From NCBI GenBank assembly GCA_025201365.1, contig JAIXMF010000006.1:558001-622000 (forward strand): 64,000 bases of DNA, in the 5' to 3' direction. Below the pieces are notes generated by a model. That model saw nothing but the letters and a program-made list of their open reading frames with translations. It was not told where the DNA came from and made no database searches. Of the stretch, positions 40,036 to 53,851 are shown in pieces. Both the position numbers and the translations under genes were made by a program. How positions within the stretch are numbered: the stretch's first letter is position 1; each line of letters starts with the position of its first letter. Source of the stretch: Syncephalis plumigaleata (Eukaryota > Zoopagomycota > Zoopagomycetes > Zoopagales > Piptocephalidaceae).

Positions 40036-45953
<5,918 letters not shown>

Positions 45954-46574
45954 CGTGGAATATACTAACTATAGGATGTATAATAAGAAAAATAAACGCG
46001 TCTGAAACAGGAAATGGAAATGGAAACAGATCAATATGCCAAATAGTTTGATAGCACAGAGATATGTGGAAAAAAGAGGAACGAATAGAGATGGCAAATA
46101 GGTAGGTGTGGTGATAGCGAGTGAACTTGATGAGATGGATCCGATCGTGTTGATCAAACGAATAAACACTGCCGTCTAAAAAGCAAATGACTCTGCTTAA
46201 TAAACAACAGTGTGTGTGTGTATATGTAAGTGAGTGAGTGCGCAACGACGTATCACTTTCTCTTAGGTAGTCCTCCTATCTTTAACTGATGGATGTGTGT
46301 GCACAGTTGACAACAGCGCAACAGAAAGAAGAAGTAGCATCCCGAATCGACGGGCGAATGCAAAAATGGGGCTCTATTTATAATTGAGGAATGAGTCATT
46401 CTGCATTGATTTGAATGGTATGTGTGTGTAAGGTGGAAAATGTTCAAGGCAAGTATGGGAATATTGTCCCGCCTCATTTGTGGGTAGAGTCATCACATAT
46501 TACCTTCCCATTTTGTTGTTAATCACAATTAATAAAACTATTCAATTATAATTATAATGGTCAATACGACATAT
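45954..46574. other. Spacer: RPB1 promoter side and 3' side of the microexon gene
   Basis: AT-rich, with a GT run near 46210-46235. It should contain the RPB1 promoter and the 3' UTR of the neighbouring minus-strand gene. No other feature. Confidence 0.5.
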
Positions 46575-49500
46575 TTATTCAATAAATGATTGAATGATCT
46601 TGTAGATATATTTCTTGGTCCAAGGAATAATGACTTGAATGGCATGGACACTAAAGGGTCTTGCACCAATCCATTCTTGACTTGAATACCTATAATATCT
46701 ACTTGATGATGTCCTTGTCTTGTTCTGTAATCTTGATGGATTAGTATGAGTATGATTATTGTGGATTATTACTTACTGCTTAATCTTCCTATCGTTCAAT
46801 CAATGTGTATTGTATTGGAATTAGATCGATGTATCAATGTTAAAGATGCTAGCTTACATCCTAGTATCCATGATCATACGGGAATTGTATGTCACAATAT
46901 GATTAATGCTTCATGTCTATAAGCTGACACGTTTAACTTACAAGCTATCATGCGGCCATACGTTAATCATTTGTGATATTCCAACTAGTATGCCGCAGAT
47001 TGTAATGGTGACATCAACCTACATGTTGATTCTCAGCCTCCAACTATGCCATACAACAGTGGATTAGTTTTACAAGATGTTTGACCAAAGCAAACGATAA
47101 TACTTACATCTTCCTGTACATAATCATACGTGGATTGTATGTCCCATTGTAATAAGTGCATGATGCATTATTATTCGGATATTAACTTACTTCCTATAAT
47201 AATACAAGTACAAGTCGTATTCCAATTAGCATACCATAGATTGTAATCGTGGCATCAACCTACATGTTGATTCGCTTCCTCCATCTAGAACATACAACAG
47301 TGCATTAGTTTTACAAGATACTTGACCAAATCAAACGATAAAACCTACTTTTTCCCGCATACGTTCCTACGTGAATCGTACATTCCACTGTAATGAGTGC
47401 ATGATGCATCGTCATTCGGATATCAACTCACAAGCTATCATGCAGCCATACGTTAATCACTTGTCATATTCCAACTAGTATGCCGCAGATTGTAATGGTA
47501 ACATCAACTTACACGCTGCTTCTCAGCCATCAACTAGGATATACAACAGTGGATTAGCTTACAAGATATTTGACCAAATCAAACAATAAAACTTACTTCT
47601 TCCAGTATACGATTCTACGTGGATTGTATGTCCCATTGTAATGAGTGCATGTTGCATTATCATTCGGATATCAGCTTACTTGCTATAATATTAAACAATC
47701 ACATATTACATTGCAATCAGTATACCGTAGATTGTAACCGTAGCATCAACTTACACGCTGCTTCTTAGCCACCAACTATGACATACAACAGTGGATTAGC
47801 TTCACGAGATGCTTGACCAAATCAAACGATAAAACTTACTTCTTCCCGCACACGTTCCTACGTGAATCGTACATTCATTGTAACGAGTGCATGATGCATT
47901 ATCATTTGGATATCAGCTTACTTGCTATGATAATGATACAAACACATATCGTATTATGATTAGCATGCTGTAGATTGTAATCAAAATGATGACTTACACG
48001 TTGCTTCTCAGCCTCCAACTAGGGAATACAGCAATGGATTAGCTTCACAAGATACTTGACCAAATCAAACGATAAAACTTACACCATTCTGTGCATAATC
48101 ATACGTGGATTGTATGTCCCATTGGAGTGAGTGCACGATGCACCATCATTCAGATATCAGCTACCCCTATAACGATACAGCAAGCACATATCCCATTGCA
48201 CTCAGCATACCGTAGATTGTAATCAGAATGATGACTTACTTCCTTTCATACACAATCAAGGTCAATAGTATATCACAATACGATTAATACGCTATGTAAA
48301 TTGGCTGGAATACTGGCTTACCTTTTAACATTTACAGGTTTATGTGAATCATTCAATGCATTATCATTAGCATGTCACATATTGTAATCAGCATGTCAGC
48401 TTACCTCCTATTAATGTAATCATACGTAAACATAGGGCATTTGCAATTAGTTCATTCAGCATGAGTCGAAAATAACTTACTATCTATCATTTGTAATTAC
48501 ATATGGTCGTATTCATGACGATTAACAATCGTATCCTGTAGTGATAATGCTAGCTTACTTGCTGTTATATGTGATCATAGATCAATGTATCTAATTTACG
48601 ATTAGTTCATCCTATGCTATAATCACTACTCTGACCTACCGCCTGATATGCATAAGTGTAAGTGAATTGTATACCGATTAAATTAGTTGATTGTACGCTA
48701 TAATCATTATGCATCCTTACTTCCTGTTATATGTAATGATAAATGGATTCACATCGATTATATTAGCTCACGGTATGCTGTAACCACTATTTCGACCTAC
48801 CATCTGTTATAATGATTATAATGAATTGTACACCGATTACGATTAATTCATCGTATAATACAGTCATTATTTTAGCTTACTTCCTGTTACATACAATCAT
48901 GGGTGAATTGCACATTAATTTACGATTAGTTCATTGTACGATGTAACTGATATGTAAACATACTTCCTGTTATATGTGATCATAGGTCAATTGCATACCC
49001 GCTTACAATTAGTCCATCCTATGCTGTAATCACTGTTCTGACCTACCGCCTGATGTGCATAAGTGTAAGTAAATTGTACACCGATTACAATTAGTTGATT
49101 GTACGCTGTGATCACTATGCATTCTTACTTCCTGTTATATGTAAGCATACGTGAATGGTGTATCAATTTAGAATCATTTGATTGTGTGTTATAATCGTTA
49201 TCTTGTCTTACTTTCTGACATTCATAGGCACAAGTAATTGCACATTACTTTGCTATTAATTTCTGGTATGCTATAATCACTATTTTGGCTTACTTCTGGC
49301 ATGCATAGGCACAAATAGTAGCATATCAATTTATAATTAGCTGATTGTATTCCATAATAACAATGCTGCCTTACTGCCTGTTATATGCCACCATAAGTGA
49401 ACAGTGTGCGATTTACAATTAGTTGATTGTGCGCTGTAGTCGCTATGCTAACCTACTCTCTGTTATATGTAATCATAGGCGAGTTCCACACCAATTACGA

Positions 49501-51722
49501 TCAGTTCATCGTATGAAGCGATCGTTATTTGACTTACTCTCTGTTATATGTGATCATAAGTCAATGGTATCATAATTTACGATTAGTTCATCGTATGATA
49601 TAATCACTACTCTTGCTTACTATCTAACGTGCATAAGCGTAAGTGAATTGCACACCGATTACGATTAGTTCATCGTATAGTGGGATCGTTATATGACTTA
49701 CTTTCTGTTATATGCAATCGTAAGTCGATGGTACGCCGATTTACAATTAGTTCATCGTATGTTGTAGTTACTATTATGACTTACGAGCTGATGTGCATAA
49801 GTGTAAGTAAATTGTACACCGATTACAATTAGTTGATTGTACGCTATAATCATTATGCATCCTTACTTCCTGTTATATGTAAGCATACGTGAATGGTGTA
49901 TCAATTTAGAATTAGTTGACTGTATATTGCAAATAGTATACTAACTTACCAACTGGTATTTACCATTATAGATTTGTTATTCCACATTAAAATTAGTTCA
50001 TTGTGTGCTAAATCCTATACGTTGGCTTACAGGCTATGATTTATAAATGCATATGAATCGTATATTCCACTCCAATTAGCATACATTCTACGGCAATTAT
50101 AATGTTGGCTTACTATCTGTTGTACGTGATAATACGTGAATTGATTGTATTCCACACTCCAATTAATGTCCCGTATGCTTCAATCGAAATAATAACTTAC
50201 GGCCTATTGTATTCCATAGTCATAGGTGAGCTACATTTTGGGATTGTAGTCCACGTGTTAACTTACACTCTATGTTGTGTGATCACCACACACACACGTA
50301 TATAAATTGTATTTGCATTATGATTATTGTGATTATTATTGGAATGCTAGCTTACTTTCTTCTGCATGTGTTATTACAAGTCAATCATGTATCATGCTAC
50401 AATTAGCATACTGTATCCTATAGTCATCATAATGACTTGCCTCCTATTATTCGTAATAATAAATATATACTATGATTAGTATGCTGTATACTGACACTAG
50501 AATGACAACCTACAATCTATGCCGTGTAATCATCCATCATGATCCATGTTCATCATTTCGATTAACACATCACATATTATGATAGAAATGTCTAGTTACC
50601 CTCTGTTACATGGAAGCATACATGAATCATCAATCAGCTTGTAATTAATTGATCACACATTGCAATGATGATCACTTACATACTATTACTCGTAATCATA
50701 TGTGAATTGTATGCCATAGGGTAATGAGTACATCAACTAGTAAGACTGGAATGCTAACTTCTTACAATCTATTATGTATATATATGTGTGTGTGTGTGAT
50801 GCATTGTTATTAACATGTCATGCATTAGTATGGAAATGTCCACTTACATACTAGTGCAATCATATGGGAAGAGAATGATGATAATTGTTATTGTTATTGT
50901 TATTAGTACATTATACAGTAATGCTAGACTAGCAACTTACATCCTGTTACAGGTCATCGTACACGTATCATGACATGTCAACTTATAATGAGCACATCGT
51001 ATGCTATGATCGAAATGATCACCTACATGCTGTCATATGTGTGTGAAATGACAAGTGAAGCAATTGTGCCATTGCAATTAGTATGACGTATACTGCAATC
51101 GGAATACCGCCCACTTACAATCTATTACACGTCATCATCGGTGAATCGAATGCCACATTCCAACGAGTGCTTGCTTACCCACTAATACATGCAATCATAC
51201 GTGAATCGAATGGCTCATTACAATGATACTAGTAGCTTACGTGTTCCTATGCATGATAGTCATACGGGAATTGATTGCCCCATTCCAATGAGCGTATGGC
51301 ACAGTATCATCGTGATTCACAACTCACCTCCTATCATATGAGTATTGCAGTTAATACGTTGTATGTTTATTTAGACAGAATATCAACTTACGTCTGCTTC
51401 TATAATAGTGACATATGATTTTGATTTACATTCCAGTCAACACGACATATGTCATGATCACTCGTTGTTTAACTCACCAGCTATGATTGACAGTATCGTA
51501 TGTGACATCATCATTAGCATCGCAATCAATGTCATACGATATAGACTTACCATCTATTGATTGTCATTAGAAAGACCATTAGATAGTAGTATTACGATTA
51601 GTATGTTGACTAGTATCGATGATGATGATGATAGAAATACCAGTGGAATTTGATGATACGGATGCTGTATCATTGACTATAGGCTGGCTATTGTTATTAT
51701 TGTTATCAGCAGATAATTCCAT
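46575..51722 (-). CDS. Microexon-array gene: about 60 introns, most internal exons a single 3-nt unit; novel protein
   Basis: No known family. Exon 1 is 51641-51722 (MELSADNNNNNSQPIVNDTA, then SVSSNST plus one base), with a GTATTT donor. Then follow about 59 internal exons, 43 of exactly 3 nt, each with AG before and a donor after (mostly GTAAGT; some GTAGGT, GTGAGT, GTAAGG, GTATGT and one GCAAGT). Introns are 57-90 nt, mostly 77-81. The last exon is 46575-46689 (YSSQEWIGARPFSVHAIQVI, then IPWTKKYIYKIIQSFIE, stop TAA). Joined, the exons keep one frame: phase 1 after exon 1, phase 0 after the exon at 51392, phase 2 into the last exon. The middle reads EEHWIHDYIYRIE, KKSAIPLE, LKIRRAEKEAEEMEAQIE, then decapeptides such as ERVREEKQRQ and NRILEEKQRL. 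About 158 aa, over 90% of the locus being intron. Likely helical; function unknown. Two 2-nt exons (49294, 48165) and one zero-length junction (48321) are unresolved. Confidence 0.8.
46942..48164 (-). repeat. Higher-order tandem repeat: five copies of a three-intron block of about 245 bp
   Basis: Copies at about 46942-47190, 47191-47431, 47432-47679, 47680-47921 and 47922-48164. Each contains three introns in the same order, recognisable by shared internal text (for example CATACAACAGTGGATTAG and GACCAAATCAAACGATAAAA on the plus strand). In the spliced protein each block adds about ten residues: (K)QRQ or (K)QRL plus ERVREE, NRILEE or ERMREK; the outer copies are reduced to NG and ED. So the DNA repeat, the intron pattern and a decapeptide protein repeat coincide. 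Confidence 0.85.
48316..48327 (-). other. Zero-length exon junction (AG directly followed by GTAAGC)
   Basis: Between the exons GAG (48405-48407) and GAA (48240-48242) the gap is 162 nt, twice the usual intron. In its middle, AG is followed at once by GTAAGC, so the two intron-like units abut with no exon. It could act as a recursive splice site or be a unit that lost its codon. Confidence 0.55.
48481..49949 (-). repeat. Array of 81-bp intron-plus-codon units
   Basis: About 18 successive units with a period of 77-83 bp, each a 75-80-nt intron plus one 3-nt exon. Units share a minus-strand core GAACTAATCGTAA and a 3' end like ACTTATGATCACATATAACAG. Some multi-unit copies are nearly identical: 48640-48740, 49047-49150 and 49785-49890. 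This fits growth by tandem duplication of intron-codon units. Confidence 0.85.
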
Positions 51723-51972: not shown

Positions 51973-53851
51973 ATGACAGCTCATGCTCGTAGTAGTAATG
52001 TCTCACTTTATCCATATACACTACAGAACAATATCGTCTATCCTACTCCTATTGGTCAATCGCGAGCGACAACCTTATTAGCTTGGGTGAGTTGCAGGAT
52101 TCTTATTCTTTGTTACTACTTCTACTTACTCTACGTAAGAAACAAGCTAGACCTAGTATCTGTTGTATCTGCAACGAGCACAGGTCATTGCTCAACAACC
52201 CGCTGTTAGTATGTGCTACACTGACGTGCGATGTAGTTGTTCATCAGTGTAGGTTAACAATACGACACTATCAAGTATATATATAGCAAAGACTAATTCG
52301 TTTATTTAATCAGTTTGCTATGAGGCTGAACTTTGTTGCACGTCCAACTCCTCGTCTTCATGGTATTGTCAGCGCTGTCTATCGGGTATAGATCGAGTGG
52401 TAAGCAAAATGGATTGTTGATAAGAAACAGCGGTTCTTTTCTAATTTACCATACGATAGACATGCCTAGTATGTCCAAGCAATCAAGGTGCTTTCTATCC
52501 AGTTGGCGATATACCCGGAGGTTGGATTCATACAGTGTGTGCTCTGGCTATTCCAAATGTAATTATTCAAAGGACGGCACAGCATCAATGTCAAGTTTTT
52601 GTTACTAGAATCGCCCTCGATTACTGGCAATCAGTGAGTAGTGTTGATTCTCTATCAACGAAGCTCGTCTAACCACAATAATACTAGTGTACGATATGTG
52701 ATGATGTGATAGATGCCACAGAAGGTGTATGCATTCCATGTGCGGTTGAACATTGTACGCATCGATGTCATATTACGTGTGGTTATCTCGCAAGTGATAC
52801 CACTATTCCTACTAGTAAATGGTCCATCTATTGTCCTGATCATGGACAAAGTAAGGGAATCAAACATGATACATGGCGGAATTGGTCATGTCAATATGGT
52901 CAGTCCATCGATACTTGGGAGTTACATGATTATCGAACACTTGTAAATAGCTGGAAGATGAACGTATCATGGCAAGTGGAACAGTTTACACTACTGCATA
53001 ATGAACGCGTGCATCAATCGGATCTATTAAATGCTCGTCGTTTAATGGCACGTACTCTTTCGCAACTATGGTATATCATTCGACCATTCTGGTCAGTTAC
53101 AAATCAGTCCAAAACTGCCATTATACCAACAGCACAAGAGAGAGATCACGTCAAATATCTACAAAAGATACTTGAAAGGCAGCTTGACCTATTAGCACCA
53201 CAGAAATCTATAAGCATGCCTGTTGCCAATAAATGCTCACCTATCATTGTAAACGATGATCAATCATCATCATCAACATCAACAACATCATCATTGACAC
53301 GGCACACTCATGAAGATCATGTAGAAGATCATGTAGAAGAGGACAGTAATATGATATCACATACATCACTTGATAGCCATCATAGTGCAGAGACATCAAC
53401 TACTATTAAAACAAACAATCAAATGCTGGATAGTCATAATGATCATGAAAGTAATAGCAATATGAATGAATCTGAATCATTTACATTATCCGATCCAATA
53501 GACGACGAATCCACACCGCGTCATCATCTTAAACGTTCACCATCTCCTTCAACTTTATCTACTGATCAACCATTACAACAACAACAACAACAACAACGTC
53601 GTCATCGTCGTCGCCGTATTCCACACACGCCAAAGTATCACTTTACACCACGTTCCAACAAGCCGTTGTTATGTACAACGTGTCAGTTGGATAATAAGCC
53701 TGATTCATTATCGTCTACAGATACAACTACATCATCACTTCGTAAAAGTACTCGCCATCATGTAGTACCACGACATATAGCCACCACGAATACTACAGAT
53801 AAAGTAACTTGGGGTGCCATTTGTACTCAATGTCATCGTGTATTATTTTAG
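51973..53851 (+). CDS. PHD plus extended-PHD finger protein (PHF14/BRPF-type reader)
   Basis: Chromatin reader with the PHD - zinc knuckle - ePHD cassette seen in PHF14, Jade and BRPF proteins, which bind histone H3 tails. Exons: 51973-52086, 52140-52248, 52314-52399, 52460-52633, 52688-53851. PHD1: CCICNEHRSLLNNPLLVCAT, then CDVVVHQFCYEAEL and WYCQRCLS. Knuckle: CLVCPSNQGAFYPVGDIPGG, then WIHTVCALAIPNVII. ePHD: CTICDDVIDATEGVCIPCAV, HRCHITCGYLAS, WSIYCPDHGQ. The C-terminal half has a helical stretch and a Ser/His/Thr-rich tail, a polyQ run and two late CxxC pairs (LCTTCQLD, ICTQCHRVLF) that may form another small zinc site. Poly(A) signal AATAAAATAAA follows near 53902. No frame break. Confidence 0.85.

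Follow-up and report, generated by a model that had tools for sequence, protein, structure and literature searches.

Can a gene be built mostly from exons of one codon each? The question is raised by a 64,000-nucleotide stretch of the Syncephalis plumigaleata genome (contig JAIXMF010000006.1; hereafter the window), on whose minus strand spliceosomal donors and acceptors alternate from position 51722 to 46690. Our analysis indicates that this array belongs to a gene family with many members, the usual product of which is predicted to be a short secreted peptide whose mature part seems to have almost every residue encoded by an exon of its own. With a probability of roughly 0.87, we read the family as genes composed of a conserved signal-peptide exon, a pro-region, runs of single codons, a stop exon and a 3′ untranslated region (3′UTR), which would be spliced and whose products would be secreted and directed at a host.

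The window gene was modelled with a splice-site chain, computed by dynamic programming, in which donors, acceptors and branch points are scored and exon lengths divisible by three receive no preference. It returned 54 internal exons, namely 43 of 3 nucleotides (nt), three of 6, three of 18, three of 21 and two of 2 nt; the length is a multiple of three in 52 of the 54. The 56 introns measure 57–90 nt and fall into the three residue classes modulo 3 in numbers of 18, 19 and 19. The last of them was run through the terminal exon by the parser, and a separate analysis gives 69 nt at this place. Donors are GTAAGT (22), GTAAGC (12), GTAGGT (9) and others (13), and no stop codon occurs among the 43 triplets. 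An earlier inspection of the window (the sequence-only reading) had counted 43 internal exons of exactly 3 nt and introns of 57–90 nt; both figures were reproduced by this frame-blind parse.

The pattern YAG-NNN-GTAAGT-(50-80)-YAG-NNN-GTAAG was found 2109 times (1122 + 987) in the 32.6-Mb assembly. The reversed pattern gave 5 matches, a 2-nt exon in the first place gave 4 and a 4-nt exon gave 1, and chance is thus excluded as the source of the array pattern. In a protein search with one member, at least 144 loci with the signal-peptide exon were recovered at E-values up to 0.001 (150 scored of 167 candidates); some of these are intron-free and others may be alleles on small contigs. A first look at the genome had yielded 180 candidates for the conserved first exon and 203 for the conserved 3′ block, with 40 scored for each. 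Ten regions of contig C1 were picked by the array pattern alone, and eight of them begin with the family's signal-peptide exon; of the remaining two, L039 has a divergent first exon and L033, the paralogue of the window gene, has none. For some genes on large contigs, identical or similar copies are present on small ones, perhaps as alleles (C360 and C223 with L070 and L071; C193 and C68 with L060 and L063). Relatives of exon 1 were also observed on short public contigs (P0138, P0140–P0144), 53–73% identical over part of the query, and in five of these six the reading seems to continue into an intron at the corresponding position. The array family may exist in other Zoopagales.

To describe a typical member, we modelled 35 signal-peptide loci (L031, L032, L034–L038, L040, L043–L069), again without preference for multiples of three. 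A model was obtained for 32; exon 1 of L052, L058 and L068 lies outside the start pattern used. The terminal exon was reached in 24 models. Exon 1, which is of ordinary size unlike the array exons, has the sequence MKFSAVIAIAVAVVALTSLVAVEA-SPVLERR and a phase-1 exit. After a few small exons, one of which (usually 5 or 2 nt) shifts the frame to phase 0, the single-codon array begins. The array is closed by a small exon that holds the stop, TAA or, in L069, TGA, and then GCR or ACA; an intron in the 3′UTR and the conserved 3′ block come next. All 32 models start with MKFS, the start by which they were selected, and three further signal-peptide loci start otherwise and keep the hydrophobic stretch; the signal peptides were judged by eye throughout. 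Out of 667 internal exons, 557 are 3 nt long and 627 are multiples of three. The other 40 comprise 39 that leave a remainder of 2, including the phase-setting exon in 29 cases, and a single one that leaves 1. Intron lengths (n = 699) are distributed 236/211/252 modulo 3, with 606 introns of 76–84 nt and a median of 80 nt. The longest runs of 3-nt exons count 34 (L053, cut by the stretch analysed), 31 (L063) and 30 (L048), and 3-nt exons stand in phase 0 in 420 cases and in phase 1 in 99. Five models (L048, L055, L062, L063 and L064) encode the framework C-x(n)-CC-x(n)-C, with n = 4–15 in the first loop and n = 7–12 in the second.

It is very probable that the single-codon exons are spliced and translated, because exon lengths are multiples of three, stops are absent, cysteines are conserved and intron-free relatives exist. 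A different explanation would be that the arrays are an untranslated, intron-like satellite inside one big intron or 3′UTR and are skipped as a whole. The mutual homology of the introns (median identity 63% in a multiple alignment) is in line with such a satellite, as are the lack of a known transcript and the divergence of exons between the window gene and its paralogue at the rate of introns. It does not account for exons spaced in multiples of three while intron lengths spread evenly modulo 3, nor for the composition of the triplets. None of the 516 single-codon triplets is a stop, where 12.28 were expected from column composition, and zero was reached in none of 20,000 column shuffles. When TAG, which is possibly avoided as a false acceptor, is left aside, 8.7 TAA and TGA codons were expected and none was seen. 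Triplets strictly in phase 0 contain 0 stops in 420, and the two shifted readings contain 1 and 48 in 393. Moreover, the TAA is in frame with the ATG in 18 of the 24 models that reach the terminal exon (p = 4e-5), and 13 of these 18 have no earlier stop.

The cysteine codons provide a further line of evidence. In pairs of related introns from different Cys-containing arrays, the downstream cysteine is kept in 39 of 39 cases (five of them as TGT versus TGC), compared to 24 of 116 for other residues. This test used an alignment score of at least 55, 13 Cys-containing arrays named by hand and pairs in which either member has Cys; permuting codons inside arrays gave a maximum of 0.36 in 2000 trials. 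Over all arrays and both flanking codons, Cys is kept in 220 of 226 cases, Leu in 54%, His in 49%, Arg in 45% and Gly in 42%, and Lys, Pro, Asp, Thr and Ala in 9–14% (each pair is counted from both sides and the pairs are not independent). A satellite would not be expected to keep cysteine codons through synonymous changes while their neighbours are replaced.

Also, some relatives carry the spliced sequence without introns. L070–L072 are intron-free and L073 is uninterrupted as far as its sequence was examined; these four loci are either ancestral or the products of intron loss. In L072, CGT-GCT-GTT-GTC-GAA-CGT-CGT-GCT is contiguous and forms part of the stretch RRAVVERRA, which is split into exons in L038 and L040 and has the same residues once the introns are removed at the predicted junctions. 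In L071, TAA-GCA continues directly into AACAAGACAAGG, the sequence that starts after the 3′UTR intron in array members. The junction of stop and 3′UTR is likewise contiguous in L072, where TAA-GCA-AA lies at the end of the stretch examined. Since these relatives run from the family stop straight into the conserved block, a 37-codon last exon, which the sequence-only reading had taken as coding, is ruled out: the block reads as 3′UTR, and the family stop in the window is the TAA in the exon at 46788-46777. A related case is L039 (C1:2255883-2256550), whose single-codon exons in phase 1 give MKFSVVIIVAFVMAMAIIMSSADATPVAATSSSCTRRRCYDD followed by a TAA stop, with a product that ends in SSCTRRRCYDD. 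Its signal peptide is divergent and its introns are not matched by the intron profile of the family, and the predicted product is still open and secreted. With frame, stop and cysteine evidence against it, the satellite was rejected, and we regard it as very improbable. The frame statistics, the conserved cysteines and the intron-free relatives thereby support two proposals of the earlier inspection, that the gene consists mostly of single-codon exons and that splicing and frame are under selection.

How might such exons be spliced? Among 451 introns flanked by 3-nt exons, the donor is GTAAGT in 384 and the acceptor is TAG or CAG in 448, and the length is close to 80 nt. A branch point ACTAAY was found in 348 of them, about 43 nt from the end, and 48 have no match in the part scanned. 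These are spliceosomal signals, and they make it scarcely credible that the segments are eliminated from DNA, in a programmed, ciliate-like manner, rather than from RNA. Regular short segments between coding pieces would suit such an elimination, but donor, ACTAAY about 43 nt upstream of YAG and acceptor would be left without a role, and the intron-free relatives sit at other loci and encode different peptides. Returning to removal by the spliceosome, each short intron would be recognized by intron definition, aided by near-perfect donors, a branch point at a fixed distance and a uniform length. Removal in 5′ to 3′ direction would be easiest, as the growing upstream exon would never be tiny and one codon would be added per step. 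CAG is absent from the 516 triplets (3.9 expected; also absent in 334 of 20,000 shuffles), and CAA occurs 11 times versus 4.7 expected. Both deviations are to be expected if a YAG right before GTAAGT were taken as an acceptor, and CAG is probably avoided for this reason, as it would place a false acceptor next to the following donor. Recursive splicing, in which AG/GT would leave an exon of zero nt, does not describe the arrays, in which the 3-nt exons appear to be kept and coding. A conserved RNA structure or hairpin was not predicted in any of 24 introns, and the idea of a conserved intron hairpin was dropped.

The signal peptide of a typical member ends in a dibasic site, and a short pro-region comes after it. 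The products would be secreted and processed after that site. Zoopagales are mycoparasites (PMC10386755), and the peptides could form a rapidly changing arsenal directed at the host fungus or at competitors.

The introns themselves offer information on how the arrays evolve. Pairwise identity is about 76% whether introns are taken within or between arrays (0.755–0.769 within one array versus 0.756 to other arrays), and the nearest neighbour of an intron lies in the same array for 81 of 451, compared to 19 expected. Recent local tandem duplication as sole origin was therefore rejected, given that introns within an array are barely more alike than introns from different arrays. When an intron is compared with its nearest counterpart in another array, the upstream codon is identical in 118 and the downstream codon in 107 of 451 cases, versus 13 expected, so codon and intron tend to move as one unit. 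Among related pairs in the top quartile, 72 share the downstream codon, whereas 44 differ in it nonsynonymously and 6 synonymously, and thus there is no sign of purifying selection outside the cysteines. The members of the pairs L034/L069 and L044/L059 differ by whole units gained or lost. Each unit consists of an intron plus whole codons; therefore gain, loss and exchange through recombination in introns keep the frame, and the peptide could be changed residue by residue without a frameshift. Intron insertion as such would need no whole-codon spacing, whereas gain, loss, exchange or skipping of units would predict it. Introner elements are many similar short introns within one genome. Here, the family intron profile has 41 matches in the window, all inside the array, and none in L041, L042, L039 and L071 (about 90 kb in all), so that no spread of introners was seen within this sequence. 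The closest introns of different arrays often share codons, which speaks for intron-plus-codon units. It is our tentative view, held with somewhat less than even confidence, that a repertoire of secreted peptides is assembled codon by codon and that the architecture itself generates diversity by recombination, perhaps with combinatorial splicing.

Combinatorial splicing can also be put more strongly: the arrays would be coding, and skipping of exons would yield many peptides per gene. Nearly all exons are symmetric, a property that intron insertion alone does not demand, and two GenBank models, P0123 and P0124, leave out individual single-codon exons. However, frequent skipping would blur the cysteine framework, which is kept across genes, the donors are near uniform (GTAAGT in 384 of 451), and an artefact of prediction accounts equally well for the omissions. 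We consider this version unlikely. P0123 and P0124 share long runs of identity with our independent models of L053 and L061. They were not accepted as transcript evidence, the omitted exons having weaker donors often, though not always.

Several observations weigh against the proposal that the family encodes translated, host-directed peptides. One shifted phase is also nearly stop-free (1 in 393), and counting stops is not enough to identify phase 0. The frame is lost in six of the 24 models. In L032, L035 and L067 this happens as early as exon 1, in L066 it is due to a 2-nt exon, and in L038 and L044 to parsing or to a real change. Five of the 18 in-frame models have another stop, three of them inside the terminal exon, one in the pro-region (L050) and one in L036, a model with a mis-parsed 31-nt exon. 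Codon usage of the triplets is unlike that of ordinary open reading frames in the window (rho −0.07). P0123 and P0124, which may be ab initio predictions, omit single exons, several of them with weaker donors. The sharing of codons between nearest introns is found mostly in the more similar half and is weak in the less similar half (15 + 15 of 221). For 11 mature peptides, DNA and protein searches gave no intron-free copy, with nothing returned to score, and an empty result of this kind carries no weight; the idea of recent retrocopies that would serve as fossil transcripts was set aside with the same limit. In the comparison of the window gene with L033, exon bases differ at 10 of 118 positions, as fast as introns (206 of 2542), and six of the seven changed codons are nonsynonymous. 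Finally, the effector role is one that we infer only, from the mycoparasitic lifestyle, the size of the family and the hypervariability around the cysteines.

The window copy itself is organized as follows.

51641–51722, minus strand: exon 1 of the window copy, 82 nt with phase-1 exit; it reads MELSADNNNNNSQPIVNDTASVSSNST, and 80 of 82 aligned bases are identical to the paralogue L033.
48405–51553, minus strand: first array section; the count is 39 internal exons, 35 of them 3 nt long, to which GAG at 48407-48405 is added; introns of 57–90 nt.
49294–49295, minus strand: 2-nt exon, where the paralogue L033 (contig C1) has 3 nt; a frame break or an assembly error.
48083–48404, minus strand: part of the array not cleanly parsed, with one acceptor lost and one more irregular junction.
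46858–48082, minus strand: second array section, built of tandem units (about 243/490 bp); 15 parsed exons (eight of 3 nt, the others of 6, 18 and 21).
46777–46788, minus strand: terminal coding exon GAAGATTAAGCA, in which the family stop TAA lies at 46782-46780; the same junction is unbroken in the intron-free L071 and L072.
46725–46776, minus strand: 3′UTR intron of 52 nt, GTAAGT..TTACAG.
46560–46724, minus strand: conserved 3′ block of the family, 3′UTR, which includes the last exon of the sequence-only reading.

The normal first exon with phase-1 exit that had been proposed earlier is confirmed at 51722-51641. In contrast to the sampled family members, it has no signal peptide. The exon before donor 51391 has a length of 2, 5 or 8 nt according to which acceptor is taken; the value is always 2 modulo 3, and the exon sets the array to phase 0. 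A possible AAAAG/GT site lies near 48322, and the second array section encodes a peptide rich in Glu, Lys, Arg and Gln. At the end of the 3′UTR intron the parser chose a later AG, and the boundary at 46725 was settled by the intron-free relatives. One unbroken frame through the whole array, as first proposed, did not hold up, given the 2-nt exon at 49295-49294 and the section 48404-48083. Since it lacks a signal peptide and carries a frame-breaking exon, the window copy may be damaged, and there is a nearly even chance that it is a decaying pseudogene while other members of the family are functional. The unparsed section and the divergence of exons at the rate of introns point in the same direction, and the sequence comparison with L033 gives no indication of purifying selection on the exons. 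On the other hand, over the first 3.3 kb donors, acceptors and branch points differ from L033 at 17 of 518 positions, compared to 206 of 2542 in intron bodies (p = 4e-5), so that splicing signals are still better kept; this contrast also speaks for selection on them and for the reading of the family as spliced genes. In addition, 52 of 54 exons have kept a length divisible by three, and single-base assembly errors would give the same appearance as decay.

Past the 3′ end of the array gene, at 40036–44347 on the minus strand, open reading frames of RPB1 (the large subunit of RNA polymerase II) with its YSPTSPS tail were observed. On the plus strand at 52706–53851 lies an open reading frame with a Cys/His-rich N-terminus that is PHD-finger-like by eye and has no Pfam match. 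One neighbour gene in the window shows 84% identity to S. fuscata, and a metagenomic protein is closer, with 90%.

If the family is spliced and translated as proposed, genes with as many as 34 consecutive single-codon exons would allow splicing by intron definition to be tested at its physical limit, and splicing would operate far past the usual exon sizes at about 2000 two-unit places in one genome. A parasite would alter its peptides one residue at a time with no shift of frame, and each event of unequal crossing-over, gene conversion or exon skipping would give a new in-frame peptide. Ordinary annotation can miss such a repertoire, as both GenBank models that were compared with a locus (P0123 and P0124) are incomplete.

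Conotoxins have a conserved signal peptide, a dibasic site and hypervariable loops between conserved cysteines, and the layout in Syncephalis is alike. Conotoxins are not known to have one codon per exon. The exons of aphid bicycle genes are longer than one codon. With conotoxins as the comparison peptide family (PMC4278219), the Pfam family Conotoxin gave a match below its cut-off to the L064 precursor (17 bits versus 25.1; E-value 0.012), the sole Conotoxin match in seven proteins. P0133 has a sub-threshold Pfam match to the yeast alpha-factor leader (E-value 0.31). The two matches reflect a likeness of precursor layout, not membership.

Among the literature matches listed, the nearest systems are the schistosome micro-exon genes (MEGs), the bicycle genes and isolated microexons. 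Exons shorter than 51 nt are described as being at risk of skipping (PMC4674806), and recognition of microexons by the spliceosome is referred to as an open question (PMC13149111). A 1-nt exon in Arabidopsis APC11 (PMC4674806), a 3-bp exon in Drosophila homothorax (PMC7392893) and a microexon in Trichoderma Xlr2 (PMC11121469) illustrate that splicing of 1–3-nt exons is possible and that microexons are in use in fungi; these are single microexons and not runs of tens. Among the best-ranked matches of a literature search by title and opening of the abstract, with preprints and most subscription journals outside it, none describes microexon arrays in Syncephalis or a gene with runs of single-codon exons. 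Bicycle genes, as summarized in PMC9168663, have phase-2 exons and CYC motifs, and megacycle genes have more than 100 microexons. The Syncephalis family resembles them in being very large, in the diversity of its putative effectors and in having many exons of one phase that are unusually small. It differs in that its 3-nt exons are mostly phase-0 single codons (phase 0 in 420, phase 1 in 99) and in its C..CC..C framework.

Schistosome MEGs are summarized in PMC10526429 as 35 genes of 10–20 exons each, mostly of 15 bp with a minimum of 3 bp or 6 bp, and with introns of 0.1–5 kb. Consecutive very short exons divisible by three are found in Syncephalis as well, known here from genomic sequence (627 of 667 sampled exons and 52 of 54 in the window), and a signal peptide in the first exon is seen by eye in the family models and not in the window copy. 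Long introns and exons of mostly 15 bp are not found, the median intron being 80 nt and the exons 3 nt. Both are gene families of parasites with secreted products and with coding sequence mostly in tiny exons, mainly of lengths divisible by three. Unlike the MEGs, the Syncephalis family belongs to a fungus, with at least 144 loci that have the signal-peptide exon (intron-free ones and possible alleles included), 557 of 667 sampled exons of exactly 3 nt, runs of up to 34 such exons and mutually homologous introns of about 80 nt.

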